NCBI GenBank assembly: GCA_963281255.1
Contig: OY725500.1
Coordinates: 124,001 to 188,000 of the forward strand
Direction: 5' to 3'
Length of the DNA: 64,000 nt
Source of the DNA: Aphrocallistes beatrix
Taxonomy: Eukaryota; Porifera; Hexactinellida; Sceptrulophora; Aphrocallistidae
A program made the translations under genes and the position numbers. Below the pieces are notes generated by a model. It searched no databases. It was not told where the DNA came from and saw only the letters and a program-made list of their open reading frames with translations. How positions within the stretch are numbered: the first letter of the stretch is position 1; each line of letters opens with the position of its first letter. Shown here piece after piece: positions 24,196 to 62,933 of this stretch.

Positions 24196-24415
24196 TACGA
24201 ATTGAAGTATTCTCCCTTCTACCGTACTAGATATGCCTAGAGGAATTAAACGTATCTGGTAGCTATAGTGAGTATGTGCATTAAGATCTTGTTCTATGCA
24301 ATTGTTCCATCCACCCACTCGACACAATTAAGATTCTAGTCATATGGACACTACGAATGTTCAACTTGAAATAATCTGGCTTACCATCACTATTTAGCAT
24401 TGCAAAGGCCAATAC

Positions 24416-33360: not shown

Positions 33361-33892
33361 AATTAGAATAAACATTCTCACATAAAATTTTCACACCTCA
33401 AATAGAGAGGGGACATTTCACACTAACTAATCAAATCAGAGAAATATAAAACAGCTGTTCAGAATAAAAAGAGAATAAAGAGCAGATACAAAATTAGAAA
33501 ACACAGAAATAGAACTTCTTTAACACTCCATCAAAGTAGAGTCACATTCTTAGTAGAACCATCTCGAGACCACTTCCTCCACGATCAGCTGATACAGTGA
33601 CACATGTTCCTCTTCTGATGACGTCAGAGACTACTCGTGAGTATCCTCAGGTCTGTAGACACGGTAAAAGTGTAGGAGACTATTGGTTCGTGAGTGCTGT
33701 AGGATCAGGAATAGAGAAGTCGATACTATCAGTGCTACACTCTGTCATTCCTAGTGATAGAAGTGGGATGTAGTTATGCAACCTTAGTTCCATATGGAAG
33801 TGGATGGTAATTAGGTTTAAATATAAATAGATGGAGGTCAAAGTATAATTAGGAACTAAATAGAAACAAACAAATAATGACACAAACAACAC

Positions 33893-35137
33893 TTATAGAG
33901 AAGAAAATATTTGAAGTCCGTAGTTATTATTCCAGGACACAGTAACTAAGTTTAGATTTGAAGTCAGAGCTAATCCATGAGGACAATAAAACATTCCTAC
34001 TTGGTGACCACGTTCCCCTATCGTGTGGAGGAGATCTCCTTCATTTGAGAATATTCTGATCTGGTCAGCATAGAAATCGCTGATAATTAAATTCTTTTTG
34101 GTGTCGAGACAGAAGATGTAGGATTGAGCTATCTGCATTACTCTACCACATGTGATTAGAGAGCGTGTCTTGTGTCCGGTATGAGTAAACACATGCACAC
34201 AAGGAGAATCAACATCACTAAGTACGTACATTTCTTCTGTCGTTAATTTTACGTCACAAGGTCTGTGCATGGATGGATGTGTTACCTCTCTAATCGGGTG
34301 CAGGGAGCTATCTAGGATTTGGATTCTGTTGTTGTTTGTATCAGCTATGTACACATCTCCATTGGTAGAGATGGAGAGTTGGCGGGGTTCATTAAACTGT
34401 CCGATACCAGATCCTCTGCTCCCTAGCCTAGCCACCAGACGGAAGTCAGTCTCTATCTTCAAGTGGAACACAGCGTGTACCTTCCAGTCCGTTACATACA
34501 GGTTGTTTCCATGTATGGCGATACCACATAATGATTCCATGTGCTCGTGAGTGTAGCTGTTTAGGAACTCGCCCGACTCTGAAAATATAGACACTCTCGC
34601 GAAATTAGGATATTTACTTCCCTCAGCGACATATATGTGGTTGGTGGCTGGGTCTATAGCGACACCACGAGGAAACCAGAGTTCACCAGGAGCTTGACCT
34701 TCCTTCGCAACTGCTACTGTGGGTCTCATATCGTGGTAGCGGGGGACAACTGGTACCTCTTCCTCGTAGATCTCTCCCACACCTTCAATCAGCTGCTCCA
34801 GCTGTTCACACTCGCCACGAAACACCAGATACGTGTCGGGGACAGGAGCACGTAACACTTCCAGTTTCTGCTCTATCTCTGCTAGGAGGCGCTCCTGTGT
34901 CTCTTGAAGGAAGTTCTCTCTGAGGTGTCGCTCTATGTCAGCTCTCGCGGACAGAAGCTGCTGCTCGCTGCGTTCGCGCTCTGTCACTCTAGCTGCCATT
35001 TCCTGTCTCTTCTCGTGCGCGGTATTCAGGAGTGTCGCTCTTCTGTGCTGTGCACACGCGACCACGCGGTCGAAGAAGTGGTTGATGTGGACCTCCACTG
35101 GGTCCACGGGCTGTGGGGCGGGAAACGCTACGGCCAT
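33893..35137 (-). CDS. NHL gene D, coiled-coil/NHL protein, 414 aa
   Basis: Single exon, ATG at 35137 (MAVAFPAPQPVDP). Residues 1-145 form an amphipathic coiled coil with blocks HFFDRVVACAQHRR and LAEIEQKLEVL. Residues about 150-414 are a six-bladed NHL propeller with blades marked by HIYVAEG, NLYVTDWKV, VYIADTNNNRIQILD, MYVLSDVDSP, LIISDFYADQIRIF and YGLQIF. The subfamily includes E (37279-38526) and F (53500-54744), whose coiled coils differ from D at only a few residues, while the propellers differ at about 40 positions clustered in the same blade turns. A TATA box at 35202-35209 is shared by all three. There are no RING, B-box or signal sequences. Role unknown; a recognition protein is a reasonable inference. 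Confidence 0.88.
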   Translation of the reverse strand: MAVAFPAPQPVDPVEVHINHFFDRVVACAQHRRATLLNTAHEKRQEMAARVTERERSEQQLLSARADIERHLRENFLQETQERLLAEIEQKLEVLRAPVPDTYLVFRGECEQLEQLIEGVGEIYEEEVPVVPRYHDMRPTVAVAKEGQAPGELWFPRGVAIDPATNHIYVAEGSKYPNFARVSIFSESGEFLNSYTHEHMESLCGIAIHGNNLYVTDWKVHAVFHLKIETDFRLVARLGSRGSGIGQFNEPRQLSISTNGDVYIADTNNNRIQILDSSLHPIREVTHPSMHRPCDVKLTTEEMYVLSDVDSPCVHVFTHTGHKTRSLITCGRVMQIAQSYIFCLDTKKNLIISDFYADQIRIFSNEGDLLHTIGERGHQVGMFYCPHGLALTSNLNLVTVSWNNNYGLQIFSSL

Positions 35138-35201
35138 TCTACTCAACTCGTAATATTGCTAATAGGATAGTATTGTGAATGAACAGGAGTCTCGTAAGGC
35201 T

Positions 35202-35209
35202 ATTTTATA
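35202..35209 (-). promoter_or_regulatory. TATA box of gene D
   Basis: TATAAAAT on the reverse strand, about 65-72 bases before the ATG and conserved at the same place in genes E and F. Confidence 0.65.
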
Positions 35210-35568
35210 TTGGAACAGTGCACCAGTGCAGAGATCAGGTTACGAATGTTAAATTAACAATCCTATTCCATTGCAATATTATAATTGTGTCTCTGTATAG
35301 CGACACAATTTGTGTCACTATACAGTATTATAGTGTACGAGTAAGTATATACTATATTAATCGAGTTTTAATACTAAGGATTTCTAGTATTGTACTAAAT
35401 ACATTACATATACGTTTATCCCTTTCCTGAACGCAACACTACTGGTTAATCCCTGATTATACAGTGTAAGCACCTCACATATACCAGCTGAGGTATCCCT
35501 TCTAACTATAGTAATTACTGTTAGCAAAATACCATCTAATACATAGCAACATAAGAGGGGTGTTGGAA

Positions 35569-35793
35569 TGCATACCGTCATAGTTGGGCCTCCTTCTGGG
35601 GGGTCCTCTAGGGGGGGTAGGACATGTACTCCCTCCTGGGAGGAGGCGGTCCCCTCATCGGCGGATCGTAATCATTCGGGGGCCTACATAACAACAGCAT
35701 AAAACGGTCGCTATGGAGATGGAAAGGGTAGAATGGCACTCACCTTGTCTGGGGATTCCTCTTCCTCCACGCGGTCTGTTGTAACTATTCATC
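35569..35793 (-). pseudogene. Possible RGG/proline-rich gene start, two exons, frame broken
   Basis: On the reverse strand an ATG at 35793 opens MNSYNRPRGGRGIPRQ and ends at a good GTGAGT donor (35739/35738). After an acceptor near 35688 the best frame reads NDYDPPMRGPPPPRREY, then after a run of seven C's a different frame reads PRGPPRRRPNYDG before a GTATGC donor. The two exons do not join in phase, and the C-run needs one base fewer. It could be a decayed RNA-binding RGG protein, a sequence error in the homopolymer, or a chance match. No family is assigned. Confidence 0.3.
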
Positions 35794-37278
35794 TTGTTGC
35801 TCAGTTCAGTTCTCACAGCTAATCACAGCTAACAGCATCAGACCTCTGCCTAGCCCGCTATACAGCTCTATAATTAGCACAGTTAGTTTCAGTTCCAGTT
35901 AGTACAGGTAGTTAGTGCAGTATGGAATTTGAATGGAAGTGCTGTGAGGTTGGGATGAGGGAGATTTACTTACTGGGGAGTGGAATACGAATAAGGTCGT
36001 ATTAGAAGTACGAGCTTACAAATTGCAGTAGAAACTAGTCATACGTCACTCCACATAACAATCCCGCATCGGATTTCCATTAATAATTATATTCACATAA
36101 CATAACAGCTATTCTGCTCATATCTATGGCATGGATCTCCACCATATATTAGCTAGACTCAGTAACCAGCACGTATTACAAGGTCTCCTACAAGTTACAC
36201 TGTATATTGGATAGTACTGCGTGAGTACACAGATATTATTGAAGTCAAGGATTGGATATATTATACAGTCCTTCAGAGATGACTCCTAATCTCAACCCCT
36301 TATATTTCCATACGCCTAAATCGATAAATAACATTATAATAGAGGGTAAATTTGGTATTATTATGGATTTTCTAGCACCTAAACAATTCGAGGCTTCAAC
36401 TCTTACGCCTAGATAATTCATTGAGGAAAAGTCAGTGTCTTAGCTAGGGATTCGTTGAGTGAAGCTAGATCTTGCCTAGGTACGTATTATACCAACAAAC
36501 ATCTCGAGATAAATAAACATGTTAAATACAGGACATGATAAGATCAAGCCTGGTTGTGTAGAGTGATGATTCGATGCCACATAATATTAAGTGGAAACGA
36601 TGGAGAGACAAACTCTCTAACGCGAGTAAGTTTAATAGATTTGTATTCATTTGATCAGTATCGAACTTATTGAAAAAAAAATTACGAGGAAATATGGAAA
36701 ATGCGTGATTAGTAAGCATATATGTATGGGAAGTGTTAGAATTGGAAATCTAAATCCAAATAAGACATTGATATGACTCAGTTTTCAGTTCAAAATCGAA
36801 ACAAACTAAACTCTACAAGAATTCATTCCTAAAAGCAGGCACAGGTGTAGGGAAATATTCGGACAATGTCTGAGAATTGAGTTGATTGTATCTTCAGAGA
36901 ACTTTCTCATGTCTATCCTAATCCTCTGACAGAACTCTTCATAGGTGCAAATGACCACTTCTTCCACGATCAGCTGATACAGTGACACATGTTCCTCTTC
37001 TGATGACGTCAGAGACTACTCGTGAGTATCCTCAGGTCTGTAGACACGGTAACAGAGTAGGAGACTATTGGTTCGTGAGTGCTGTAGGATTAGGAATAGA
37101 GAAGTCGATACTATCAGTGCTACACTCTGTCATTCCTAGTGATGGAAGTGGGATGTAGTTATGCAACCTTAGTTCCATAAGGAAGTGGATGGTAATTAGG
37201 TTTAAATACAAATAGATGGAGGTCAGAGTTTAATTAGGAACTAAATAGAAACAAACAAATAATGACACAAAACAACAC

Positions 37279-38526
37279 TTATAGAGAAGAAAATATTTGA
37301 AGTCTGTAGTTAGTATTCCGGGACACAGTAACTAAGTTTAGATTTGAAGTCAGAGCTAATCCAGTAGGACGATAAAACATTCCTACTTGGTGTCCACGTT
37401 CCCCTATCGTGTGGAGGAGATCTCCTTCATTTGAGAATATTCTGATCTGGTTAGCATCCCAATCGCTGATAATTAAATTCTTTTTGGTGTCGAGACAGAA
37501 GAAGTAGGGTATAGTTACTTGCATTCCATTACCAAGTGTGATTATAGAGCGTGTCTTGTGTCCGGTATGATTGAATACATGCACACAAGGAGAATTTTCT
37601 GAACTAAGTACGTACATTTCTTCTGTCGTTAATTTCACGTCATAAGGCCAGTGCATGGATGGATGTGTTACCTCTCTAATCGGGTGTAGGGAGCTATCTA
37701 GGATTTGGATTCTGTTGTTGTTTGCATCAGCTATGTACACATCTCCATTGGTAGAGATGGAGAGTTGGCGGGGTTCATTAAACTGTCCGATACCAGACCC
37801 TCTTCTCCCTAGCCTAGCCACCAGACGGAAGTCAGTCTCTATCTTCAAGTGGAACACAGCGTGTACCTCCCTATCCCTTACATACAGGTTGTTTCCGTTT
37901 ATGGCGATACCCCATAATGCTCTCATGTGCTCGTGAGTGTAACTGTTTAGGAACTCGCCCGACTCTGAAAATATAGACACTCTCGTGAAATAAGTAGGAT
38001 GTCTAACACCCTCAGCGACATATATGTGGTTAGTGGCTGGGTCTATAGCGACACCATTAGGAAACCAGAGTTCACCAGGAGCTTTACCATTCTTCGCAAC
38101 TGCTACTGTGGGTCTCATATCGTGGTAGCGGGGGACAACTGGTACCTCTTCCTCGTAGATCTCTCCCACACCTTCAATCAGCTGCTCCAGCTGTTCACAC
38201 TCGCCGAGAAACACCAGATACGTGTCGGGGACAGGAGCACGTAACACTTCCAGTTTCTGCTCTATCTCTGCTAGGAGGCGCTCCTGTGTCTCCCGAAGGA
38301 AGTTTTCTCTGAGGTGTCGCTCTATGTCAGCTCTCGCGGACAGAAGCTGCTGCTCGCTGCGTTCGCGCTCTGTCACTCTAGCTGCCATTTCCTGTCTCTT
38401 CTCGTGCGCGGCATTCAGGAGTGTCGCTCTTCTGTGCTGTGCACACGCGACCACGCGGTCGAAGAAGTGGTTGATGTGGACCTCCACTGGGTCCACGGGC
38501 TGTGGGGCGGGAAACGCTACGGCCAT
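37279..38526 (-). CDS. NHL gene E, coiled-coil/NHL protein, 415 aa
   Basis: Single exon, ATG at 38526. Same layout as D: N-terminal coiled coil (1-145) and NHL propeller (150-415). The coiled coil differs from D at only about three residues (for example NAAHEK against NTAHEK). The propeller differs at roughly 40, including one inserted residue (HPTYFTRV against YPNFARV). Changed residues sit around x-P-x-G turns (WFPNG, HWPYD, FYRPTG) and just after VxD motifs (RDREV, SDWDAN, VSRNTN). The gene is intact. Its stop-proximal flank and promoter are nearly the same as in D and F. It lies in tandem with D, 2.1 kb upstream of it on the reverse strand. Confidence 0.88.
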   Translation of the reverse strand: MAVAFPAPQPVDPVEVHINHFFDRVVACAQHRRATLLNAAHEKRQEMAARVTERERSEQQLLSARADIERHLRENFLRETQERLLAEIEQKLEVLRAPVPDTYLVFLGECEQLEQLIEGVGEIYEEEVPVVPRYHDMRPTVAVAKNGKAPGELWFPNGVAIDPATNHIYVAEGVRHPTYFTRVSIFSESGEFLNSYTHEHMRALWGIAINGNNLYVRDREVHAVFHLKIETDFRLVARLGRRGSGIGQFNEPRQLSISTNGDVYIADANNNRIQILDSSLHPIREVTHPSMHWPYDVKLTTEEMYVLSSENSPCVHVFNHTGHKTRSIITLGNGMQVTIPYFFCLDTKKNLIISDWDANQIRIFSNEGDLLHTIGERGHQVGMFYRPTGLALTSNLNLVTVSRNTNYRLQIFSSL

Positions 38527-38590
38527 TCTACTCAACTCGTAATATTGCTAATAGGATAGTATTGTGAATGAACTGGAGTCTCGTAAGGCT

Positions 38591-38598
38591 ATTTTATA
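38591..38598 (-). promoter_or_regulatory. TATA box of gene E
   Basis: TATAAAAT on the reverse strand, same position as in D and F relative to the ATG. Confidence 0.65.
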
Positions 38599-39137
38599 TT
38601 GGAACAGTGCACCAGTGCAGAGATCAGGTTACGAATGTTAAATAACAATCCTATTCCATTGCAATATTATAATTGTGTCTCTGTATAGCGACACAATTTG
38701 TGTCGCTATACAGTATTATAGTGTATCAGTATAGTGAATCCATCATAATATCGCTATTAGGACATTGTGGAAGAGAGAAAACAAGATTTTGCCTGCCATC
38801 AACCATTACAGTCATCCTAAGATTTATTTAAGGCATTTAATAAGTAAACTAGAATAAAATTAAGTAAAATATTTTGTCGAACCAAGAAAATTAAGTTTTC
38901 TTAATATTTTGCTATTATAATGGATTATATGTATCTGTCGTAATGGAAGCATGTTTTAGGGAGAGACAGTGGATTCGAGTTTATAAGAGCTAGTGAACTA
39001 TCAGAATTGCTCTAGGAAAGTTTGAAACTAAAGAGATAAGATACACAATACCAATAAAAACTAACACACATCAGTTTATCCTTTGAAAATAAGAATTATT
39101 GGAAGGATTGTTTGTCAGAATTATCATAATTGTCCAT

Positions 39138-39590
39138 AGTAGCCAACTGTCCCGTTTTTTGGCGGGAGATACCCCTTTTTCGGACATATGTTGAAAATGG
39201 GATACAGACAATTCGTGACATTACAATTCGTGACATTACAATTCGTGACATACAATTCGTGACATTACAATTCGTGACATTGCTATTTGTGACTATTCAA
39301 CATAGAATTGATGAATTCAATGTTAGAATGTGAGAATGAATTTCTCTCTCGGGAAGTAATTCTTTTAGTTGTAATTGTCTTTCATCTTTAATTAATCAAA
39401 AAAAGTTGAATGAAACTCTTTAATCTCAACTAATGATTGTTTACACGACTACAAGAATGTCACGAATTGTAATGTCACGAATTGTATGTCACGAATTGTA
39501 ATGTCACGAATTATCTGTATCCCGTTGAAAATAGTGTCTCGCTAAAATAATGCTCATATCCCGCTTGTTTCCTAGCAGAGGTTGGCATGT
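39138..39590. mobile_element. M7-type element interrupted by a hAT-like insertion
   Basis: Outer arms GCCAACTGTCCCGTTTTTTG and CATATCCCGCTTG with GGTTGGCATGTA match the uninterrupted element at 57876-58100. The inner 39199-39524 element separates them. Confidence 0.65.
39199..39524. mobile_element. Non-autonomous hAT-like element with tandem-repeat termini
   Basis: Flanked by an exact 8-bp duplication TTGAAAAT (39191-39198 and 39525-39532), the length typical of hAT insertions. Both ends start GGGATACAG and carry four or five tandem copies of ACAATTCGTGACATT in opposite orientation. The interior is A/T rich without coding potential. The remaining stretch 38830-40712 before CNOT4 shows no gene. 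Confidence 0.75.
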
Positions 39591-40712
39591 AGGATGGATA
39601 CCAAGATAAACCTAAGTCCTTTAAGATTTGTTAGGGTTGTAGACCCTGAAGCATCCATGGTTCCACCACATATGCCCTGTGGACATAAACTCTTCACAGA
39701 CTTCTCAACTCTAAAGATCTCGTAGTGTGTCCCAATAGTTTCGCTGTTATATGAGACCATTACTCTATTATCTCAGATTCAGAACACTGTTCATAATACT
39801 ATTCACCACATCTCACGATTCACTACATGCTATCACAAGATTTGGCTAGACTACAGGTGTCAGCAGTGTAACGCTAGCAAGTGAAGTGCTTGTGTATCAG
39901 TGACATACACGGCTGTGAATGAGTATGCATAGTTTCGTTGTCTAACCATCTCTAACGTCATGCATACATCCTAATTTGAGCTATATGATAACTATTCACG
40001 AATGTTCATTCCATCCATGGTCTATTCTAAAATCTATGCGTTCTATTTACACTTGTGACTCTCCTGATCCCACTCAGACTTGCGTAGCTGTTCCCTACAT
40101 TCCTGATTATCTAATACTCGTACTGAGTTCGTGTTACCGACAATAACTATAAATGTTTTCGGGCTACGTATGCTAGATATCAGGTATGTTATTCAGCCTT
40201 CCAGAGATACACTCCTAGTCTCAAACCCTTCAATTCCATACGCCTAAATCGCTAAATAAAATTGTAATATAGAATATATTAGGTATTAATTTAAACTTTC
40301 CTCTTAAACACTTTCGGGCTTAAATTCATACGCCTAAAGGAGCGTATCTCATAGATAATATCTTGGTAGATATATATATACGAGCAACACATTCTAAAAA
40401 TATTCCAGAGGTGTTCAATGTATACAGTTTTCAATAAATTGAATATTTTTTTATTTTTTAAAGGTTCGAATCAGAGGAGGGTATTGCACAAATTTATTTA
40501 GTTACAGATCTGTTTCCCTTTCCAATCCTTTAGAAAATATTTTCATTCTATTTGCAATTAGACAAATAAATATAATTTGAACTTCTTACTGCTAATCCTA
40601 CTTCTTGGCTTTTCATTTATCTTTTTGTTGTCTTGCTAGGTTTTGTTGTTATTTACTGTTAGTTTATATTTATAATTAGAACAGAGATCTATTTATAACA
40701 CTTACAAACTAA

Positions 40713-43700
40713 ATGTCGAAATCCGATCTAATCGAGACAGATTGTCACGAAGTGAGTTACAAATATTTTATTTTTTTTCATATTTATAAATTTATTTGTG
40801 ACTATTGAGTTCTTTCAGATGTTTGTTTATATCTATAAAGGATTTAAGAGTGTAGATTCCGAGATATTTCTGAAAATTTATACGTATGATCGATACAGTA
40901 GAACTCGGATAGACGTACCCTTTCAGGAAGGAATTATTGATACGTACTAACCGAGTTTGTACTACATAGAAATCTATATTGGGAAACGGAACTTTCTTCA
41001 CTCAACGTTTAGAAATTATTATTATTATAAACGTATGTAATTGATTATTGTTAACAAATATAATTTCGCCTCATTAGCGACTAAAATAAACGGTACTAAT
41101 GTGTAAGCAACGGAAGTTGAGGCTTTTTGAGTGGAGAATGTTTGAAAGTATGGTTGAGGGCTTTTGATTGAGAAATAAGTAAATGCGAAAGGGGTATTGT
41201 GATGAAAATTCCAGGGGCAAAAGTTCCGCTACCCGTTGTCCGGTAACTAATGTTCAGAGGACGAAATGATACATCTATATTATAGATGGATTATGGTTCA
41301 GTGAAATGAGTACGTACTAAACCGAAGAATGTATTATCTGAGTCCTAACCGAGTTCTACTGTATATATATATGTATAATATTTGTGTTTTTACACCTTCC
41401 AGACAGGTTTATACCAATGATAGTGAGATAACACTATTCGAAGGGGAATAACGATAATAAAATTCTAATGTTAGGATAGGATGTACCTAATTCACGGAAC
41501 GGAACGGATCCATTCCGGGAAATCTTAATTTACGGAACATTCCGGGAAATAAGCATTTATTATATTCGAATGGGCATGCCTAATTTTTTCGGGACGGGAT
41601 CCTGTCCTGTCCGGGAAAGTTTCTTGTTTACCTCACCTATTTACTTATTTCTTGTTTACTTATTTACTTGTTTACTTATTTCCTTGTTTACTTATTTACT
41701 TGTTTACTTATTTAAATATTTACTTATTTCTTGTTTACTTATTTACTTGTTTACTTATTTACTTGTTTACTTATTTAAATGTTTACTTATTTCTTGTTTA
41801 CTTATTTACTTGTTTACTTATTTCTTGTTTACTTATTTACTTGTTTACTTGTTTACTTATTTACTTGTTTACTTGTTTACTCAGTGTCCGCTATGCATGG
41901 AGCCGTTCGAGCTAGACGACGTGAACTTCTACCCGTGTGGCTGTGGCTATCAGATCTGTCGGTTCTGCTGGCACAGAATCAAGACAGATGAGAGCGGACT
42001 CTGTCCCGCCTGTAGACAAGTGAGTTACACTCCGACACAATTCATGCCACTTCACACCTAACCAGGAGGAACGGAAATTTGATCAGGAAATACCTATGTA
42101 GGGTTTTGATTAAAAAAAGTGTGGAATTTTAATACATACAACTCCACTTTCTGACCAAAATTCTACATAATGATCAAGTGTTCAGTTTCTCGTAGGACTA
42201 ACTAAACGGAAAAAATTCCTACGTAATCCACATAGTCTAAAAATGGCTCAGTTGTCTCAAAGCCTTGTCAACTGATTTCAGGAACCGTAAAATGGGGCGA
42301 CTTTGGCCCTAAGAGGTGACTTTGTCCTACAATAGCAATTTTAATAAAATATACTCAAACTTATGAATCAATGTAATCACATTGATAATATGTTGAACGA
42401 AACTCTCAATATATCCAAACGTATTTAAAACGCAATATTTCTAAGTTTGAGTATGCTTTATTTAAATTGCTATCGTGGGACAAAGTCACCTCTAGGGGCA
42501 AAGTCGCCCCAGTTTACGGTAATTGACCAATCAGGAAACCCGCTATCCTGATTGATCAATCCACTCCTGCTTATGATAATACACATCTCTGTCCATTATT
42601 TCTATCATGATGCTTTAATCTAGGAGAGAGTATTGATTCAGATTTTGATTCATTCATTGGTGTGGGAGTGGTATGCCAGTCATGCCATTCTGACCACTTT
42701 TGTTAAGGCGTATTGGTAAATAGCTCAGTGGATCTCTCTACAGCTGTTACCTTGTATTTAATAAACATGAAAAGGGAAATACTTTATATTTTAAAAATTG
42801 TGACTTAAATATTCCAGTTTATATACAATTAATTTTTATTCCCAGTTCTCCACTCTCGTGTTTTATCTATTGTTTGTATTTACTTTATAGCCATACACAG
42901 AGAATCCAGCAGAATACACACCTCTCACACAAGAACAGTGAGTTGTTTACACTTGTTTACATTTGTTTATTCCTCATTTTTATATTCTAAATACCTTTCT
43001 AGAATCACAAAATTAAAACAGAAAAAGAAAACAAAAAATCACGAAAAGAAACAGAAACAAATAGAAAATAGAAAGAATTTATCAGAAGTCAGGTGTGTAT
43101 CTATTTATAGTTGTTTACAAGTGTGTATTATGTTGTTTACAAGTGTGTATTCTGTTGTTTACAAGTGTATTTCTGTTGTTTACTTGTTTACTTCTGTTGT
43201 TTTTGTTGTTTAGAGTTGTACAGAAGAATTTAGTATTTGTAGTCGGATTATCTAAAAGATTAGCAGATATAGAAGTGAGTTATTTGTTAAGACTACAAAT
43301 AAGATTACAGACCTAAATCATGGATCATAATCTATTGGAGAGAAAATTCTAAAATTAGGAATAGTGTGAAAATATATTTACAGTAAAACCTTTTTAATAC
43401 GAACACCGAACGAAATTTGTTCGCATTATCTGGAATTCCTCTGGAATTATTTACATTTCTTTTTCTGATGAAATATATGTTCGTATTGACTAGATTATAC
43501 TGTACAGTATAACCCATAGTGTTCTAATGATATTTTAAACCATTCCCTTTAAAGTGTTGAAATGGTTGACACATAATAACTGCCACTTATGTGATAGCCA
43601 ATAGGCTTCAGTCAAATATGTGTCAGATTACCCAATTTGTGGATTATATATAATACTATAACACATGTAGTAATATAGAATAGAGAAATTAGTGCACGAA

Positions 43701-46700: not shown

Positions 46701-49700
46701 AATTCTGGCCTCATAAGCTAATACACACATCACTAGTCAGTTGGTGGTACATGTTTTTAATCATCAGCCACTGATTGGTCAGAGTAACCACGCCTTAACT
46801 CTCTTGTCTGAAATAATTCAATGGTTCCCTAATAACTGAAATCTCATTTAGTTCTTCCTCCTTGGACACCTTGAAATAACAATAATAATATTTTAGGCGC
46901 TAGAATAATGATCATTTACAGCTATAAATTCGATATTCTGGGCATACCTAATTTACGGGACTGGATAGTCCCGTAAATTAGGCATATTAACTCGTCCCAT
47001 CCCGGAAATTCGGCATCTTGACTCGTCCTGTCCCGGAAATTCGGCATCTTGACTCGTCCCATCTCGGAAATTAGGTATCTTAACCCATCCCCGAAATTCG
47101 GCATATTAACTCGTCCCATCCCGGAAATTCGGCATCTTGACTCGTCCTGTCCCGGAAATTCGGCATCTTGACTCGTCCCATCTCGGAAATTAGGTATCTT
47201 AACCCATCCCCGAAATTCGGCATATTAACTCGTCCCATCCCGGAAATTCGGCATCTTGACTCGTCCTGTCCCGGAAATTCGGCATCTTGACTCGTCCCAT
47301 CTCGGAAATTAGGTATCTTAACCCATCCCCGAAATTCGGCATCTTGACTCGTCCCATCCCGGAAATTAGGCATACCCGATATTCTGAATTTACACACTCA
47401 TAAATGTGGAGACTTGAATATAAACATTTCTAATTTATTTCTAGCTATTCTCTTCACTTCTATAAACAAACAAACTATAAATGTTATTATTATTGTTTGT
47501 GTTTAGACAATCCACACCTGACAATTCTCCCAGTCCACAGCGACAAGCTTGCTCCCCAAATCTCTGTAAATCTCCGAATTCCAACACAGACTCCAGTAAC
47601 CAGGTTACAAGCCCCACTCGACCTAGCAGGACGTTAGAGGGAGATTTAGGTGAGATGGAGGGTCTAAGTTATGACCATCATCTTATAGTGTTGATTCCAA
47701 TCTGTAATGGTGACTAGTGTCTCTATTGAATGCTTGATTTTGAAATTCTGTTAAAAAGTTAAAATTAATTTGTGAATTACAGTCGACTCTGTTTAATAGG
47801 GTCACATCGGTCAGAGGATATTTTGTCCCGATTAAGCGGAGAACTTTAGTAACCGAAAATATTTTGTATTAGCTTCTATGTGTGAGAGCTATTCCAGTCC
47901 TGCCAAAAGTGGCCCGATTAAGCGATTGAAGCGGAGTCGACTGTATTAATTAAAAACCTAAAGTGAAACAGTTGTTCAAATTCTGAGAACCATGTTTTGT
48001 GAATTCTAGGAGAATACTGAAATATTTTCATCTGAAAATACCGTCATTATCTGGTTGAGGCTGAAAACCGGTTTAAACCGGTTTTACCTGTTCTTACCAG
48101 TGTAGCAGCTCAGTACTGTTCTATCTGAAACCTGTTTTGCCAGACAGAATTCCACTTGAGACACTTGTACTGTTTGATCTGATTGGTCGTTTATATTTAG
48201 ATACTTTGTCACCTGTCACTCCCACTCACAGCACTGGAAGTTCCCCGCCCGAACCGACACTAATTTCACACCTCACTCAGACGAACAATTTAGAAATAAA
48301 CATTAAACAAACAGAAACAAATCCACTTCCTGATACAACCTGTCCAACAACCATTTATACAGATAGGAATGTGACATCTGTTCCTTCTTTCACATTAAGA
48401 GATAGATCGTTTGCTTCAAATGAATTTGGAGTGTGAGTTACACTTTTTCACACCTTTTCTTGTGTTTACATTCAGTGTTGATGTTTGTTTGTTTGTTTGT
48501 TTAGATTAGGAACTGCTTGGGGGAAATCTGATCATTCAACTGACCAACCATTTCAAACGACTCAACCAGGTTATATATTAGCTGTAATTCTAAAAATAGA
48601 ATTTTATTTATTTTGGCGTTTGTTTACTTGTGTTTGTGTCAACAGATACGTGGGACTATCTTCGCAGTGAAGTGCCACTAGCTACAGACTCACACCTCCC
48701 ACTGCACAGATCCAGCCAATCAGATCTCAGCATTCCCACGCATCAACTGGGCATAGACATCCCCTCTGTCCAATCAGCTGTTTCTTCTCTCCAAACAGAG
48801 GAAGTGAGCAACTCCTTGAAAGGTAAACAGACACATATATATATATGCATTTATATATGTGTAGGCAGGTGTGAATATATAGACTGCTAAGAGTAAACAA
48901 TCTCATTAGACCTACCAAGTCTAGGTGTGAAAATATGAATATATACTCTACGAGAATATTTCCCTTATGAATTGCGCTTAGTAATCTGTTAATCCCTATT
49001 TCGGACTATGGATTTTGCTAACTCATTTCCAATTAATATTTTGGGCGGGGAATCCCTATTCTATAAATAGAATTGACCCCTATACGAATTTGATTAAGAT
49101 TAATTTATTTTAAAACCATTAAATCTATTATAGTAGTATAGTACAGAAGAACTCTGTTAGTACGTACCAAGGGATTATCTAGGAGCGCGAGACGCTCCTT
49201 TAGGCGTATGATTTTAAGCCCAAAAGTGTTTAGGAGCGTGAAAATTTAGAACTTTTCCCAATTTCCCCTATAATATAATGTAATTTATCGATTTAGGGGT
49301 TTGAGATTAGGCGTATCTCTAGAGGGCTGTATAATGCCCTGGTACGTACCCCTCCGGGAAGCGGAAAAAAAGAACTATCCGTAAGTACGTACTAACCGAG
49401 TTGATATTGCATAGGAATCTATATAAGAAATGAATTCTGTTTCAGAGAAATGAGTAAAAGTACGTTGTATCCCGAGTACTAACCGAGTTCTACTGTACTA
49501 GCATTCCTATTAGAGTATTACACACTAACTAACTTCTGATTGGTCCACAGGCACAGAGGATCAGTCAACTGATGCTATTCAGTCAGAGTCTCTGCTGAAC
49601 AAGAGAGGCAGTGTGGGGAACCTTAGGCTGGGGTTTGGACTGGAACCAATGACTCATTCCATGCAAAGTGAGATCCTTAGAACTCCATCTCTAATTCCTA

Positions 49701-52205
49701 ATTATCCATTGGTTGAGTGGGATAATTCCCTTCAATGTACCATGGATTTTGCTAACTCATTTCGGGTTAAGTCATTTTGGGCGGGGAAACCTTAGAAATG
49801 CGGGGTCCAGGCTATAAATAGAATGGATCCCGTGTCATTGGCGGATTTAAGAAGTGTACTTGAGCAAAATTTCTTAAAAATATAATTCGAGTCAGATATT
49901 CCCTCTCGTGATTCGTTTAGATTTGAAACTGGGAGAGAGAGAAGAAAGTGGCCGCATTCGTTCTGCCACTAACACCTTAGTGTCAACAGCTCCTGATATG
50001 AACATGTACCCGGACACCACACACCCTAGCAACATATCGACAGCTCTGGTATGTAGAGTGGCGCATCAATACGTATTTGAATGCATTACCTATTTTATTG
50101 TTCTAAATTTAGGATAGAAGAAACTCCATTGACAATTCTCTCTCTTCTCTGAGAACTCCTTTTGATTCGCTAGGTTTGTTTGTTGATTTTGTTTATCTTT
50201 CCATTCCAAACTGATTTCCAAATTTGGAAATTGACACTTTTTTTAAATTAGAAGATTTGTTTACTTTTGGAGAAAAGACGGTTTTGTTATTTCATAAAGA
50301 ATAGAATTTATTTATTTGTGTTTCTTTCCATTCAGTTTATATTTAGTATAGAAATAAACTATGATAGAACCATGGATAAGATTGCTTCTATTTTTAGATT
50401 TATTCCCATCAAGACCCCTAATATATCCTTCTGCACCACCCAATCAGCCTCAACCCCTGAAACCCTCCAGCTACCTCTCCTCCAACCACTCACATACCAA
50501 TACACACTTCCAATCTCCTAGCAACGGCAGGCACGGAATGGAATCACATCCTAACAGAGAATTTGAAATGATGGTATTTAAACAGATTGGCTTACTCCAT
50601 TGATTCCCATTATATATCGTATGATGCATTCCATTCTACCCTCTCCATCACCATTCTCCTCCTTTAGGGCGGTTCTAGCTTCACACCTCCTCTAATGCCA
50701 ATGGATGACTGGTACAAACCACTTTCTCACGACACATGGAATTCCAGTATTCTCCCGCCCACAGACTCGACACTTCGTGGCAGAACTGAAGGCGACATTT
50801 TCAAACTACAAGACAAGCAGAGGGGACCTGTAAACAGATCCCATTGGACCATGCAAGGTAGAGATATCTATTTTAGATCCTGTGTTCTATAATTAGTACA
50901 GGTGTTAGGTGGTAGTCAGATTAAGGACACTTTGGTTCCGTGTGTATTTGTGTTTTTGTTTAGATTCCAATATGCCTACTCCACCTCCAGGCTTCCACAT
51001 GCCTGTCACTAACAGTACGTTACATTCACTTACATAGTATATTATATTACAGTACACCATCCATAGTCCCAACCAGGGTTTCATCCAGCTTTCCAAAGTC
51101 ATACGCCTAAATGGACGCCACCATTTTTCTACGCGCCTAGACTCATTTTTATATATGTTTTATGCCGCGCGCCTAGCCTCAAAATCATACGCCTAATTAC
51201 GATCCATGGGATCTAATACGCGCCTCTAGGCGCGCCCAGTACGCCTAGATGAAAACCTGTGGTCCCAACCTCGCCAATCAGAACCCTCTCTAATCCGAAC
51301 ACTTCATTCTTAAAATCCGAACACCCAAAATATAATCTGATTCTCCTCTATGCTTTGAATAAACGTTTATAAACTTAAATCTATCAATAAGATTGAGAAA
51401 CTGCGTTAAATACGCAATCATAGCGAAATAATATACTTAATATTCTAACAAAACAAATTTAATATAATTAATGTCCTAATGAATTAGTATTATTTCACTA
51501 ATCCTAACGATTATTCGATCATTGGAACAGAGCTGTTCGGATTAGTGAGGATGTACTGTAATAGCATCTGGAGTCTATTATTAGAATATTCTACACAAAA
51601 ATATAATTCTCTTTTTCAGGTCAACCTTATCCAAATCGAACACTCACACAATATCCCATGGTAAGAGTGCTTAGCTTGTATGCCTATAGTTCCACATGCC
51701 TATGACCACATGTTATCACTAGGATCCATCTAAACAGCTGATGAATCCATTCCATCAATCCTGTCCAGAGACGCTATATCCTCAAAGGAATGTCAAACCT
51801 TTCCCAGCACCAATGGAACAAACATACACTGGTTATCCACATTCCAATGCCTACCACATGTTGCCTAGAGAACAAACATGCCCAATTGCACCACGCCTAG
51901 ATTGCCACCAACCATTAGTCTACCAGACCTCCCACGAACTTGACACTATCGATCCTGTCACATACAAACAACCGCCAAATCAGGATTTTTTTTACACAAA
52001 GCAAGTAAAGAACAGACCAAAACAGCCTCCACCTAGTAAATACCAACACAAATATTGTCCACCGCAAGAAATGGGGTTTGGGAGATTTGATAAACCCAGG
52101 CTACCTCCTTTCGCCATTGGATCCTGTAACAGCGACCCAAATCTGACCAATGAGAGCTTGTACACAGAGCTGAATGAAACACAGTTCATGTCGGAGTATA
52201 ATTAG
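40713..52205 (+). CDS. CNOT4: CCR4-NOT subunit 4, RING E3 ligase, 25 exons, 1001 aa
   Basis: Exons: 40713-40751, 41885-42019, 42891-42937, 43003-43092, 43214-43274, 43801-43929, 44024-44082, 44691-44754, 44918-44985, 45364-45444, 45511-45550, 45614-45774, 45999-46166, 47507-47649, 48201-48432, 48505-48569, 48646-48822, 49551-49667, 49921-50048, 50113-50173, 50398-50573, 50668-50857, 50964-51014, 51620-51660, 51723-52205 (3006 bases, in phase throughout). CNOT4 is the ubiquitin ligase linked to the CCR4-NOT deadenylase and ribosome quality control. The C4C4 RING starts at C14 (CPLCMEP, then GYQICRFCWHRI and CPAC). A basic helix follows, then an RRM (NLVFVVGLSKRLAD, YFGKFGKI). A CCCH finger with C-x8-C-x4-C-x3-H spacing straddles exons 8-9. 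The C-terminal ~700 residues are low-complexity, with a poly-Thr exon (45614-45774), so the protein is longer than the human one (roughly 575-710). Confidence 0.95.
40896..41361. mobile_element. Long MITE, CAGTAGAACTCGG family (M3), CNOT4 intron 1
   Basis: CAGTAGAACTCGGATAGACG start, CTAACCGAGTTCTACTG end with TA on both sides; 466 bp, the longest family member. Others: 44285-44459 and 49144-49495. No coding sequence. Confidence 0.8.
41641..41881 (+). repeat. (TTTACTTR)n tandem array ending at CNOT4 exon 2
   Basis: About 240 bases of TTTACTTATTTACTTG-type units finish in TTTACTCAG, which is the acceptor of exon 2. The long hydrophobic frames through the array are repeat artefacts. Confidence 0.92.
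42284..42520. mobile_element. Palindromic element with ACCGTAAAATGGGGCGAC ends, CNOT4 intron 2
   Basis: The left arm (ACCGTAAAATGGGGCGACTT, GAGGTGACTTTGTCC) mirrors the right arm (GGACAAAGTCACCTCTAGG, GTCGCCCCAGTTTACGGT). Arms of about 60-90 bp, non-coding. Confidence 0.7.
44285..44459. mobile_element. MITE, M3 family, CNOT4 intron 7
   Basis: CAGTAGAACTCGGTTAGTAC start, CTGAGTTCTACTG end; TA precedes the left end. Confidence 0.75.
45050..45240. mobile_element. M5 palindromic element, CNOT4 intron 9
   Basis: AAGGGATTATCTAGAGACGC start and TGAGGGCTGTAATGCCCTGG end, with interior AGGAGCGTGAAAAT and ATTATCCAATTTATC. Copies at 9005-9400 (split) and 49172-49345. Confidence 0.6.
46188..46650. repeat. 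Fold-back element with ~200-bp arms, CNOT4 intron 13
   Basis: The left arm (TATCTTGAGATCCTAGT to ACCATGGATAGAG) is the mirror of the right arm (CATGGTCCATATAGGGTTCT to ATCCATGGTTAGTTAA). Both contain TTACCCAAATGGCC or its complement and several CACAATTT motifs. Spacer only about 20-30 bp. A decayed fragment is at 18300-18420. Confidence 0.75.
46922..47380. repeat. 119-bp tandem repeat inside an ATTTACGGGAC palindromic element
   Basis: Blocks starting GGCATATTAACTCGTCCC recur at 46981, 47100 and 47219 (period 119), each composed of four roughly 30-bp CGGAAATTCGGCATCTTGACT units. The whole is bounded by GGGCATACCTAATTTACGGG and CCGGAAATTAGGCATACCCG. Related degenerate pieces are at 41480-41625 and 57780-57870. 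Confidence 0.85.
47780..47943. mobile_element. MITE, M1 family, CNOT4 intron 14
   Basis: CAGTCGACTCTGTTTAATAG start, GAAGCGGAGTCGACTG end, TA on both sides. Confidence 0.8.
49144..49495. mobile_element. M3 MITE with an M5 element inserted, CNOT4 intron 17
   Basis: Outer ends CAGAAGAACTCTGTTAGTAC and AACCGAGTTCTACTG belong to M3; the interior 49172-49345 is a full M5 copy (AGGGATTATCTAGGAGCG to TATAATGCCCTGG). Nested insertion. Confidence 0.7.
51078..51258. mobile_element. Palindromic element with GGTTTCATCCAGCTT ends, CNOT4 intron 23
   Basis: Left GGTTTCATCCAGCTTTCC and right CGCCTAGATGAAAACC arms with interior ACGCGCCTAGACTCATTTTT and CGCGCCTCTAGGCGCG. Partial copies near 33120-33250 and 55393-55540. 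Confidence 0.65.
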
Positions 52206-52777
52206 TGTTGCTATGCTACTGAATGGAATGTGTGGAATGTGGATAAGAATAGTATCTCTGTTTCTGATTTTTATGTTTAGAAACGTTAAAATTAGCTGCA
52301 TTTTAAATTAATCTATATTTGTGGATGTTATTGTAATCATATATATACCGTGATGACGTCAGTAGATTTGGGTATTTCTATTTATAGAACTTAACCCGCA
52401 CTTTTAATTTCCACGCTCCAACTCTTGACTTCTTGTTTGGAGTGTTTTTACAAAAAGTGTTCCTCCTACAAAATCTGTCCGATAAATTTCGTAAAGTACC
52501 ATGGATATGTTTTCCCTCCATTGATTAAAAAGTTGAGTTGACTGAACAGCAGAGATATTTTAGTGCACTCTATTTTAGACCACCCAGTACGAAAATACAT
52601 AAACACTGAAACTAATATTAATTACGAGTTTACTATTGAACTAATCAGAGTAACAAGACACATATCATCCAATGCTATTTATCTCTCTGTGGTGGTTGAT
52701 GGCAGACAAATCTTGTTTTCTCTCTTGCACAATGTCCCAATAGTGATACTATGATGGATCAACACTATACTGATATA

Positions 52778-53331
52778 CGAGGGTCACTCAATATGTTTTC
52801 AGCCTGGAGTAGTTGCTTCCGTTTGATTTTGTTGGGATTTCTAGGATTATTCACCTACCTATTATTATCTTTGACTTTGAGTTTGATTTCAATCTGACAA
52901 GTTTCTAAAATATTGTGATGAAGAAATTGTCTAAGATATTTTGTATATGCATCTATGAAAACACAACCACAAGTGTTGAATTGGAATATCTTTGAACAGT
53001 TTTGCACACGAAATTTAAATTTGATAATCATAGAATCCTCCTGGATTGTGAATATATCGCATCATTGATAATATTGCATTATGAAAGGTTTGGTCCCAAC
53101 TATAATTTTTCCATAAAGAGAATAAATAAAATTCCATAGGAAATGGCTTGTAAATGTGTCGGAGTCCATGAAGACACTCCATTATATGTGACATAATATT
53201 TTAAAAACTTGTCCTATTGAAATCAAACTCAAAGCCAAAGATAATAATAGGTAGATGAAGAATCCTGGAATTTTGAATAGAATCAAAGGGAAGCAATAAC
53301 TCCAGGCTCAAAATTTATCGAGTGACCGTCG
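52778..53331. mobile_element. Non-autonomous mariner-like element upstream of gene F
   Basis: Inverted repeats of about 120 bp begin CGAGGGTCACTCAATATG and end CGAGTGACCGTCG, flanked by TA (52776-52777, 53332-53333). 554 bp, with no transposase. Copies D and E lack it at the matching place, so it entered after the duplication. The remaining 52206-52777 is CNOT4 3'UTR and the outer flank shared with gene E. Confidence 0.88.
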
Positions 53332-53427
53332 TAATACTATATAGCGACACAATTATAATATTGCAATGGAATAGGATTGTTAATTTAACATTCGTAACCT
53401 GATCTCTGCACTGGTGCACTGTTCCAA

Positions 53428-53435
53428 TATAAAAT
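53428..53435 (+). promoter_or_regulatory. TATA box of gene F
   Basis: TATAAAAT, 65-72 bases before the ATG and about 97 bases after the mariner-like insertion; conserved with D and E. Confidence 0.65.
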
Positions 53436-53499
53436 AGCCTTACGAGACTCCTGTTCATTCACAATACTATCCTATTAGCAATATTACGAGTTGAGTAGA

Positions 53500-54744
53500 A
53501 TGGCCGTAGCGTTTCCCGCCCCACAGCCCGTGGACCCAGTGGAGGTCCACATCAACCACTTCTTCGACCGCGTGGTCGCGTGTGCACAGCACAGAAGAGC
53601 GACACTCCTAAATGCCGCGCACGAGAAGAGACAGGAAATGGCGGCTAGAGTGCCAGAGCACGAACGCAGCGAGCAGCAGCTTCTGTCCGCGAGAGTTGAG
53701 ATAGAGCGACACCTCAGAGAGAACTTCCTTCGAGAGACACAGGAGCGAATCCTAGCAGAGATAGAGCAGAAACTGGAAGTGTTACGTGCTCCTGTCCCCG
53801 ACACGTATCTGGTGTTTCGTGGCGAGTGTCAACAGCTGGAGCAGCTGATTGAAGGTGTGGGAGAGATCTACGAGGAAGAGGTACCAGTTGTCCCCCGCTA
53901 CCACGATATGAGACCCACAGTAGCCGTTGCAAAGCAAGGTAGAGCTCCTGGCGAACTCTGGAATCCTAATGGTGTCGCTATAGACCCAGCCACTAATCAC
54001 ATATATGTCGCTGAAGGAGGTATATTTCCTATTTTCGCGAGAGTGTCTATATTTTCAGAGTCGGGCGAGTTCCTAAACAGCTACACTCACGAGCACATGA
54101 AATTATTATGGGGTATCGCCATACATGGAAACAACCTGTATATAACGGACTGTATGGTACACGCTGTGTTCCACTTGAAGATAGAGACTGACTTCCGTCT
54201 GGTGGCTAGGCTAGGGAGCAGAGGGTCTGGTATCGGACAGTTTAATGAACCCCGCCAACTCTCCATCTCTACCAATGGAGATGTGTACATACCTGATAGA
54301 GACAACGACAGAATCCAAATCCTAGATAGCTCCCTACACCCGATTAGAGAGGTAACACATCCATCCATGCACATACCTTGTGACGTAAAACTAACGACAG
54401 AAGAAATGTACGTGCTTAGTAAAGAAGATTCTCCTTGCGTGCATGTATTCAATCATACCGGACACAAGACACGCTCTCTAATCACACGTGGTAATGGAAT
54501 GCAGGTAACTCTACCCCTCTTCTTCTGTCTCGACACCAAAAAGAATTTAATTATCAGCGATGACTTTGCTAACCAGATCAGAATATTCTCAAATGAAGGA
54601 GATCTCCTCCACACGATAGGGGAACATGGACACCAAGTAGGGATGTTTTCTGGTCCTCGTGGATTAGCTCTGACTTCAAATCTAAACTTAGTTTCTGTGT
54701 CCTTTAATGATAACTACGGACTTCAAATATTTTCTTCTCTATAA
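53500..54744 (+). CDS. NHL gene F, coiled-coil/NHL protein, 414 aa
   Basis: Single exon from the ATG at 53500, oriented opposite to D and E. The coiled coil (1-145) is close to theirs (for example HEKRQEMAARVPEHER). Propeller residues 150-414 are intact but differ at the same turns: WNPNG, EGGIFPIFARV, TDCMVHAV, IPDRDNDRI, HIPCD, SDDFANQI, FSGPRG and VSFNDN. Residues between these turns are almost unchanged across the three genes. The upstream region carries a 554-bp mariner-like insertion absent from D and E, leaving the TATA box in place. The 5' flank beyond the promoter matches E, while the far 3' flank matches D, suggesting a mosaic duplication history. Function unknown; a binding protein with a diversified face is inferred. 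Confidence 0.9.
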   Translation: MAVAFPAPQPVDPVEVHINHFFDRVVACAQHRRATLLNAAHEKRQEMAARVPEHERSEQQLLSARVEIERHLRENFLRETQERILAEIEQKLEVLRAPVPDTYLVFRGECQQLEQLIEGVGEIYEEEVPVVPRYHDMRPTVAVAKQGRAPGELWNPNGVAIDPATNHIYVAEGGIFPIFARVSIFSESGEFLNSYTHEHMKLLWGIAIHGNNLYITDCMVHAVFHLKIETDFRLVARLGSRGSGIGQFNEPRQLSISTNGDVYIPDRDNDRIQILDSSLHPIREVTHPSMHIPCDVKLTTEEMYVLSKEDSPCVHVFNHTGHKTRSLITRGNGMQVTLPLFFCLDTKKNLIISDDFANQIRIFSNEGDLLHTIGEHGHQVGMFSGPRGLALTSNLNLVSVSFNDNYGLQIFSSL

Positions 54745-54844
54745 GTGTTGTTTTGTGTCATTATTTGTTTGTTTCTATTTAGTTCCTAATTAAACTTTGA
54801 CCTCCATCTATTTATATTTAAACCTAATTACCATCCACTTCCAT

Positions 54845-54958
54845 ATGGAACTAAGGTTGCATAACTACATCCCACTTCTATCACTAGGAATGACAGAGTG
54901 TAGCACTGATAGTATCGACTTCTCTATTCCTGATCCTACAGCACTCACGAACCAATAA
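54845..54958 (+). other. 37-codon reading frame downstream of gene F, kept in D and E
   Basis: ATG GAA CTA to CAA TAA, beginning MELRLHNYIPLLSLG. The frame is open in the corresponding 3' flanks of D and E (two replacement changes in E). It may simply reflect recent duplication rather than coding function. The rest of 54959-55870 is flank and repeats. Confidence 0.25.
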
Positions 54959-62123: not shown

Positions 62124-62933
62124 ATACAATCTTTTTCATTAAAATTGACTTTTCTTGATATGTTGTTATTTAGCAGGTTTGGTTCATATATTTGTTAGTT
62201 CAGATTCTATCACAAGAATCTTCGTACGCATTTTCTCAGAATTTGTCTATAATTAAGCCAATCAATAAGAAAGTTATTAATAGTAACATTGACACAAACA
62301 ATACAGTGTTAAATTCAACGAATATGTTACTTATCTCCCGCCTAATATATAATACGTATTAGAATTCCATTGTATGTTAATGGTTGATATGGAAAGCACA
62401 GGAAAGAAGGAATGTTTTTGTAGAAAAGGTCACAGCCAATAAGAATCCTTTATTGAGAAAATAAATCTATTTTTAATTATGCTTCAGATCTGTCTCGGGG
62501 TAATAAACTCAACTTTAAACTTGTTTACCTCTCAAGTTATTTGAATATATTAATTAGTTCCTATCAACAAGATTTGAGGACTTATAACCTTAGTGTGTAA
62601 ACAACAACATTGCACAATACAATTAATTATTTATTATGTCTGAAAGTACAAAGTTAATTGGAAACATTTCCATTTCCATTCATAATTCCAGTTTACATTT
62701 GTTATTGAATTCTGTTGTTTACTGTTAGAGAGCGTCTGCCATCATATCTTGCATCAGAACTGTGTCTACTAAGCTAATTCCAAGATTGTCTCCATAGCAA
62801 CCACTTCAATGTGGTTGTGTACTGACATATACACCACTCAATTCCTATAAATAGAAACAAAACATACTCTATAACATTCCTAGCTAACTCTTTTTTCTCT
62901 CTTTACTTTAGATAAATATTTTTATTGAACAAG

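Follow-up and report, generated by a model that had tools for sequence, protein, structure and literature searches.

A large NHL-repeat family in a glass sponge with diversifying selection at repeated propeller positions: a candidate intracellular recognition repertoire

This study concerns three NHL-repeat genes, D, E, and F, in a stretch of 64,000 nucleotides (the window; positions 124,001 to 188,000 of contig OY725500.1) from the glass sponge Aphrocallistes beatrix, which is part of contig C14 in a genome of 100.5 Mb in 28 contigs. Their variable propeller sites recur at equivalent positions of each repeat, which are the positions of the RNA contacts of LIN41, and these positions are under strong diversifying selection in a large multigene family. 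We consider it probable, at roughly 60%, that D, E, and F are members of an extensive germline-encoded, cytosolic recognition repertoire with a re-specified propeller face, most likely in the service of innate immunity. The genes, their parts, and their flanks are located in the window as follows.

33893..35137, minus strand (ATG to stop 35137-33893): gene D, 414 aa in one open frame; the listed protein P0001 is identical
34715-35137, minus strand: N-terminal domain of D
33896-34714, minus strand: NHL propeller of D
35138..35302, minus strand: 5' flank of D, 165 bp, nearly identical to the flanks of E and F
33723..33892, minus strand: 3' flank of D, 170 bp, near-identical to the flanks of E and F
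37279..38526, minus strand (38526-37279): gene E, 415 aa, open from ATG to stop
38104-38526, minus strand: N-terminal domain of E
37282-38103, minus strand: NHL propeller of E
38527..38691, minus strand: 5' flank of E, 165 bp
37109..37278, minus strand: 3' flank of E, 170 bp
53500..54744, plus strand: gene F, 414 aa, open from ATG to stop; the listed protein P0002 is identical
53500-53922, plus strand: N-terminal domain of F
53923-54741, plus strand: NHL propeller of F
53335..53499, plus strand: 5' flank of F, 165 bp
54745..54914, plus strand: 3' flank of F, 170 bp

The three frames are open for about seven codons ahead of the ATG, and the coordinates in an earlier note on this DNA took in three codons upstream of the ATG, from a TTG. 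In the N-terminal 141 residues, the proteins differ at 3 (D-E), 8 (D-F), and 7 (E-F) residues, whereas in the 274 columns of the propeller they differ at 41 (one of them a gap), 41, and 39, respectively. The 165-bp upstream flanks show 1/164 (D-E), 4/165 (D-F), and 5/164 (E-F) differences and the 170-bp downstream flanks 5/169, 1/169, and 4/170, resulting in an overall divergence of 0.6–3.0%. Thus, the contrast that the earlier note had drawn between conserved promoters and untranslated regions and diversified propellers holds, and the six motif triplets that it had quoted are all present in the translations of D, E, and F (WFPRG/WFPNG/WNPNG, HRPCD/HWPYD/HIPCD, FYCPHG/FYRPTG/FSGPRG, TDWKV/RDREV/TDCMV, SDFYAD/SDWDAN/SDDFAN, and VSWNN/VSRNT/VSFND), confirming that its observation was real. 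It had also described the N-terminal part as a coiled coil with few changes; the scarcity of changes was borne out, but the coiled coil was not, as these 141 residues had no meaningful relative in Pfam, PDB, or NCBIfam and, although poor in Gly and Pro, gave no significant result in a test of heptad periodicity (p 0.10–0.91).

The Pfam NHL model (PF01436; cut-off 20 bits) scored 68.5 bits in D, 74.3 in E, and 48 in F, matching 3, 4, and 2 stretches, respectively, so that several repeats lie above the cut-off in these proteins, which can hence be classed as NHL-repeat proteins. A profile search of solved structures with the propeller gave Thin, TRIM71, TRIM2, TRIM3, and Brat as the closest, and a match to the ScyF model of NCBIfam stayed under its cut-off. 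The propellers are predicted to be six-bladed. Pfam found neither a RING finger nor a B-box in the open frames of D, E, and F, which separates them from TRIM-NHL proteins as far as these frames go, and a further exon may be spliced on upstream of the ATG. No NACHT or WD40 model was among their Pfam hits, which likewise separates them from NOD-like receptors of the HNWD type. The maximum hydropathy over 19 residues was 1.32, which is low for a membrane helix; a signal peptide or membrane helix seems unlikely, and the proteins are probably cytosolic. The N-terminal domain may be a part for oligomerisation or signalling.

To place the variable sites within the repeat, we relied on LIN41, which touches its RNA hairpin via 14 residues named in the excerpted text of PMC5908797. 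On the TRIM71 repeats, these contacts occupy five repeat positions, namely, P-2, P-1, and P+1 of the motif x-x-P-x-G/D and D+1 and D+2 after V-x-D, and these five positions in the six blades of E make up a register of 30 sites. The variable motifs were already known to the analyst when the register was fixed, and its agreement with the LIN41 contacts (14/14) is by construction; the real test is the prediction of variability. The register held 23 of the 49 propeller sites that vary among D, E, and F, with 7 of its 30 sites invariant, compared with 26 variable sites among the 244 others (odds ratio 27.5, p 3e-14). In 60 related outside proteins (P0011–P0070), each of which has at most 60.8% identity to every fetched locus of this genome, 24 of the 40 propeller sites of highest variability (HV40) likewise fell in the register. 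The mean entropy was 2.52 in the register and 0.55 elsewhere in the outside proteins, and 2.30 and 0.77, respectively, in 50 sequences of this genome. When the register was slid by 1–8 residues in either direction, only 0–15 of 30 sites were variable in D, E, and F, compared with 23 when unshifted, and the entropy fell to 0.39–1.35 (outside set) and 0.59–1.56 (own set); the shifts of +1, +2, and +3 remained somewhat raised (15, 12, and 9 of 30) and highest in entropy, partly because the shifted registers overlap the true one. Therefore, the variable sites are not spread randomly over the propeller, and the recurrence at equivalent points of each blade that the earlier note had described is evident. 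By homology, the register sites would lie on one face of the propeller, corresponding to the RNA-binding face of LIN41/TRIM71. The register strings were unique in 49 of the 50 sequences, with the median pair differing at 21 of 30 residues, and the blades within one protein also differ in sequence. Arg was the commonest register residue, at 11.1% against 3.8% elsewhere; Trp and Tyr (8.7% each) and Cys (5.7%) were raised as well, with Ile, Leu, Val, and Ala being low; sites 154 and 205, at which Trp is almost fixed, supply much of the Trp. The net charge of the register ranged from -5 to +5 with a mean of 0.9.

Selection at the register was indicated by several analyses. By Nei-Gojobori counting with D, E, and F pooled, the nonsynonymous divergence (dN) of the register was 0.559 and the synonymous divergence (dS) was 0.144, the latter resting on about six silent changes, resulting in a ratio of 3.87, whereas the values for the rest of the propeller were 0.041 and 0.085, resulting in a ratio of 0.48. 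The corresponding ratios for seven recent members were 3.43 and 0.61, and those for all pairs of 11 full-length genes that are 55–57% identical to E were 1.56 and 0.39. When the hypervariable sites were instead set by the 60 outside proteins, the dN/dS of the D/E/F pairs was 5.3, 9.5, and 18.4 at these sites, compared with 0.27–0.39. A codon likelihood model with a shared silent rate gave, for D, E, and F, a dN/dS (w) of 0.65 for the rest of the propeller and of 9.8 for the register, although the latter may be inflated because a shared silent rate is assumed and the dS of the register is higher; fixing the register w at 1 was rejected by a likelihood ratio test (2dlnL 70.5, p 4.5e-17), which a wrong tree cannot have misled, as three sequences have a single topology. 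For the seven recent members, the register w was 6.3, and it was 6.9 on a star tree. A self-written FUBAR-like scan of 50 sequences on a poorly supported tree classed 33 of 274 sites as positive and 139 as negative, with the register holding 16 of the positives and 2 of the negatives. In genes A and G, two paralogues of another NHL subfamily in the window, 16 of 20 register sites differ, compared with 41 of 196 others (p 2e-7). Taken together, the likelihood test, counting, site scan, and register shifts agree on strong diversifying selection at equivalent blade positions in a multigene family, as the earlier note had suggested, with dN/dS above 1 at the turns. Positive selection on the recognition domain is a feature of finTRIM-like recognition families, and here it falls on a presumptive ligand face taken from the LIN41 contacts.

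The family comprises at least 244 distinct loci in the genome, some of which are broken copies; this number is the merged union of searches with the NHL model and with proteins, in each of which about 100–150 candidates were scored. There are 11 clusters with at least five loci each, and the most populous, at C3:441-703 kb, has 32. Among 76 loci matching E (78 searched), the match begins at residue 115 or beyond in 42 (L029, L031, and L040–L079), whose fetched stretches contain nothing that matches the N-terminal domain; many of the members without this domain read MAxAFPxxxPVDHLTAVAK, that is, the first 12–14 residues joined to the propeller. In the distant NHL proteins L005 and L006, the match likewise begins only at residue 128. 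When the N-terminal domain alone served as the query, 150 of 341 candidates were scored and 130 matches were obtained; most of these lie in frames of about 400–450 aa or in shorter pieces, and no obvious effector fusion was present among them, as judged by frame length, the longest being 501 aa. Of the 110 proteins placed in a tree, 84 fall into a single clade (support 1.0) that contains no tip labelled as this genome and has the genome member P0098 as its sister; the other 25 tips, which are labelled as own, group together, but with a split support of only 0.086; P0110 and P0117 are labelled own by a best match of only 72–79%. All 84 have at most 60.8% identity to every fetched locus, and whole-genome searches gave 61% for P0011 and 54% for P0114, which fits a separate expansion in a second species. 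Thus, the expansion is lineage-specific and clustered, as in finTRIM-like families. As a separate observation, four NHL matches of equal score lie at C12:4254386-4264612 with a spacing of exactly 3380 bp, suggesting a very recent tandem amplification.

Comparison with the 120 listed proteins provided allele-like pairs. Nineteen of them match fetched loci exactly. P0086 differs from L024 at 8 residues, 7 of which are within E-residues 189–222; P0080 differs from L025 at 17 residues, with its 171–181 loop being equal to that of the tandem neighbour L027; and P0010 differs from L018 at 48 residues, 13 of which are at HV40 sites (about 89% identity). P0086 and P0010 have no better place elsewhere in the genome. 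P0105 equals L041 exactly and P0120 is 99.7% identical to L044, which lies about 15 kb from L018, and P0010 probably lies at the same place as L018. Three further proteins are very close to their loci and show no change at hypervariable sites: P0003 and P0120 with one residue difference each and P0005 with two. These differences from an earlier assembly may be between haplotypes, individuals, or assemblies. It was also observed that L019 (C3:702915), a close relative of D, E, and F, has a broken frame in this genome, its counterpart in the earlier assembly (P0008, 414 aa) being intact.

With respect to the origin of the copies, retroposition of D, E, and F was considered and set aside, as the comparison of flanks found D and L014 to share pieces up to about 1.7 kb downstream, for which DNA duplication is the preferred explanation. 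L017 combines a near-identical N-terminal half with an old propeller: its silent differences from L015 rise from 2 of 66 in the former to 25 of 83 in the latter (p 9e-6). The block of about 54 bp that ends the 5' flank of D, running from GACTCC up to the ATG and possibly a splice-acceptor block, is also present in L013 and L015, although their sequence further upstream differs. On these comparisons, it is evident that 5' halves, comprising the upstream sequence and N-terminal domain, have been exchanged or homogenised between loci. This partly accounts for the earlier statement that everything except the propeller sites is nearly identical, which holds for D, E, and F but not for the wider close set, in which the upstream sequences of L013 and L015 and the propeller of L017 depart from it.

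From these findings, the following mechanism may be proposed. Each protein would consist of a near-constant N-terminal domain and a six-bladed NHL propeller of conserved frame, whose face, known from RNA binding in LIN41/TRIM71, would be re-specified copy by copy. The copies arise by DNA duplication, tandem and dispersed, with birth-and-death; selection then favours point mutations at P-2, P-1, P+1, D+1, and D+2 of each blade, so that almost all genes would have a ligand face of their own. Recombination between loci sometimes affects the 5' half, and many members are bare propellers lacking the N-terminal domain. What the data show is the family itself, the selection, where in the repeat the selected sites fall, the duplication, and the absence of the N-terminal module from many members; the fold of these copies, their cytosolic location, the class of ligand, and the immune role are inferred. 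The ligands would most likely be molecules of intracellular microbes or viruses, which would make the repertoire one of innate immunity. A wider possibility, which we put forward tentatively and hold at somewhat less than even odds, is that glass sponges possess a propeller-based counterpart to an antibody-like repertoire, consisting of hundreds of cytosolic NHL proteins of one common frame with about 30 variable contacts at ancestral RNA-binding positions, which would have diversified separately in two lineages or more and been reshuffled between loci as well as haplotypes, bare propellers serving as soluble forms or decoys.

Several points weigh against an immune recognition repertoire or the strength of its evidence. 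The small number of silent changes behind the register dS of D, E, and F and the possible inflation of the likelihood estimate have been mentioned above. Silent divergence itself is higher at the register than in the rest, both in D, E, and F (0.144 and 0.085) and in the group of 55–57% identity (0.449 and 0.304). Among the 33 positive sites of the scan, 12 lie outside HV40 and 17 outside the register, and the close allelic pairs of P0003 and P0005 show no difference at hypervariable sites. No signalling or effector domain was found, the matches of the N-terminal domain being nearly all in frames of ordinary or shorter length. Furthermore, an identical signature would be expected if the propellers were selected to follow shifts in endogenous targets, either RNA or protein.

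Among the other explanations, the one in which the exposed turns are under relaxed constraint or form a mutation hotspot, with no adaptive value, is hardly credible. The sites are indeed turns of the known NHL fold, and in the seven recent members the differences at fourfold sites are greater in the propeller (0.069–0.092) than in the N-terminal domain (0.046–0.048), with the silent divergence of the register being higher again. However, the register dN of 0.52–0.56 is 4.7–6.6 times the dS in the rest of the propeller (0.085–0.112), 3.4–3.9 times its own dS, and far above the 3' flank of the same members (0.058 differences per base), and the residue use described above is non-random. It is also very improbable, if slightly less so, that a somatic or germline machine generates the diversity by targeted mutation or templated conversion of loop codons, with selection being secondary. 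The changes among D, E, and F at codon positions 1, 2, and 3 numbered 40, 38, and 16 in the register and 39, 24, and 44 in the rest of the propeller, and this scarcity of third-base changes in the register fits selection better, as blind hypermutation of loops would strike third bases too. Only 1 of 20 silent-only codons was in the register (about 2 expected), and PHI-type tests of 50, 10, and 40 sequences detected no decay of linkage within the propeller (p 0.44–0.72), although the test may lack power, as site incompatibility was high at every distance (0.33–0.53) and recurrent change or saturating recombination may mask tract-wise exchange. What speaks for a targeting machine is that loop-sized patches separate the probable alleles P0086/L024 and mark P0080 with its L027 loop, that 5' halves are exchanged between loci, and that register silent divergence is raised, but the patches may equally be retained ancestral loops. 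Targeted conversion, which the earlier note had offered beside diversifying selection, thus found no support, and the interpretation given there is as a whole partly supported, with its innate immune or self/non-self role staying putative.

As for the possible uses of a selected face, intracellular immune recognition ranks as the likeliest, RNA-directed defence as its main rival, and allorecognition as less likely. In the RNA-directed alternative, which we regard as unlikely but above the remaining ones, the propellers would bind RNA as do those of LIN41 and Brat and track transposon or viral RNAs in an arms race resembling that of KRAB zinc-finger proteins. The coincidence of the selected positions with the LIN41 RNA contacts, the prevalence of Arg, and the frequency of Trp and Tyr, which can stack on bases, would all be expected of it. 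However, the near-fixed Trp at sites 154 and 205 explains much of the Trp excess, and the spread of register charge is unlike the basic pocket of LIN41 as it appears in the excerpted text (PMC5908797), so that a uniformly basic RNA pocket is unlikely across the whole family. Sponge allorecognition is expected to act at the cell surface, and a secretion signal or membrane helix is unlikely here; moreover, the paralogues number in the dozens, and the family is not confined to one or two loci of high polymorphism. These points make it improbable that the variable faces recognise polymorphic products of a partner, as do the fungal HET-D/HET-E propellers, even though the probable allele pair P0010/L018 is only about 89% identical and the hypervariable propeller sites of Podospora HNWD proteins, which are under diversifying selection, serve such a function according to the consulted part of PMC12222747.

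The window contains further members of the wider NHL family.

62916..64000, plus strand (genome C14:186931-188169): further full-length family member, 54% identical to E, cut off by the window boundary after an open frame of 361 aa
1416..2594, minus strand: gene A, NHL protein of another subfamily (MATRFPQIN type)
55962..57056, minus strand: gene G, paralogue of A, with an open reading frame about 28 residues shorter at the end

Two longer NHL proteins (531 and 520 aa), which differ in their N-terminal half and represent a further subfamily, lie at 22732-24327 and 25431-26993 on the minus strand. Between the NHL genes, a long open reading frame at 29767-30951 on the plus strand encodes a mariner/Mos1-type transposase (HTH_48, DDE_3, and Transposase_1). 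About 0.7–1 kb upstream of gene E, the 15-bp unit ACAATTCGTGACATT forms two short tandem arrays (39208-39293 and 39456-39512) in opposite orientation, which are capable of forming a hairpin, and another tandem array at 46969-47373 has periods of 31 bp and 119 bp (3.4 copies, 98% match). An open reading frame at 41570-42061 on the plus strand contains a RING, which we take to be CNOT4-like; a 16-bp tandem repeat with a high content of TTTACTTA, also coding, comes before it. Outside the window, mitochondrial COX1 (L039, contig C28) uses TGA for Trp, with ATA and AAA at conserved Ile and Lys and AGA at several usual Ser/Gly positions, a combination that presumably represents the mitochondrial code of glass sponges (Hexactinellida).

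If the recognition repertoire is confirmed, an early-branching animal would rely on a repeat propeller for recognition within the cell, its sites of specificity being readable from sequence alone, and a fold known from developmental RNA regulation would be tied to a recognition repertoire. It would also permit direct prediction and testing of ligands, as there are 30 known positions and dozens of natural variants in one frame. A literature search by titles and abstract openings, with incomplete coverage, found no report of a hypervariable NHL family, and a term search for "NHL" gave no hit in the main text of the genome paper on either Aphrocallistes or Oopsacas (PMC10282587, PMC10280926). A figure legend on Halichondria places NHL among the domains of receptor architectures (PMC8242945), and an NHL-1 gene family in a shrimp is treated in PMC11200715, as far as the consulted parts of these papers go.

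Among known systems, LIN-41/TRIM71-type proteins are few and conserved regulators, usually with a RING/B-box, and coral tachylectin-2 is a five-bladed propeller. In contrast to the former, the present family is very large, lacks a RING/B-box in Pfam searches, and is hypervariable at the contact sites, although its propeller is homologous and its diversified sites are those that contact RNA in the LIN41 text (PMC5908797). Tachylectin-2 resembles it in that it comes from an invertebrate, was modelled on a lectin that binds microbes, and bears signs of positive selection, but it belongs to another fold family, and the part of the report consulted describes an allelic survey of one gene and not a large family (PMC2880987). 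Podospora HET-D/HET-E (HNWD) proteins share with it a beta-propeller sensor of conserved repeat frame, in which four variable codons per repeat are under diversifying selection at the predicted interaction surface; however, their WD40 repeats are alike within a gene and accompanied by HET and NACHT parts, as excerpted from PMC12222747, whereas here the blades differ, NACHT is absent from the Pfam hits, and the diversity is among paralogues. The teleost finTRIMs, as outlined in the portion of PMC2657112 consulted, are likewise a big clustered family of lineage-specific expansion, with a near-identical N-terminal part and a positively selected C-terminal recognition domain; that domain is B30.2, accompanied by RING/B-box, and finTRIMs were first met as virus-induced transcripts, whereas in the sponge the recognition domain would be an NHL propeller.

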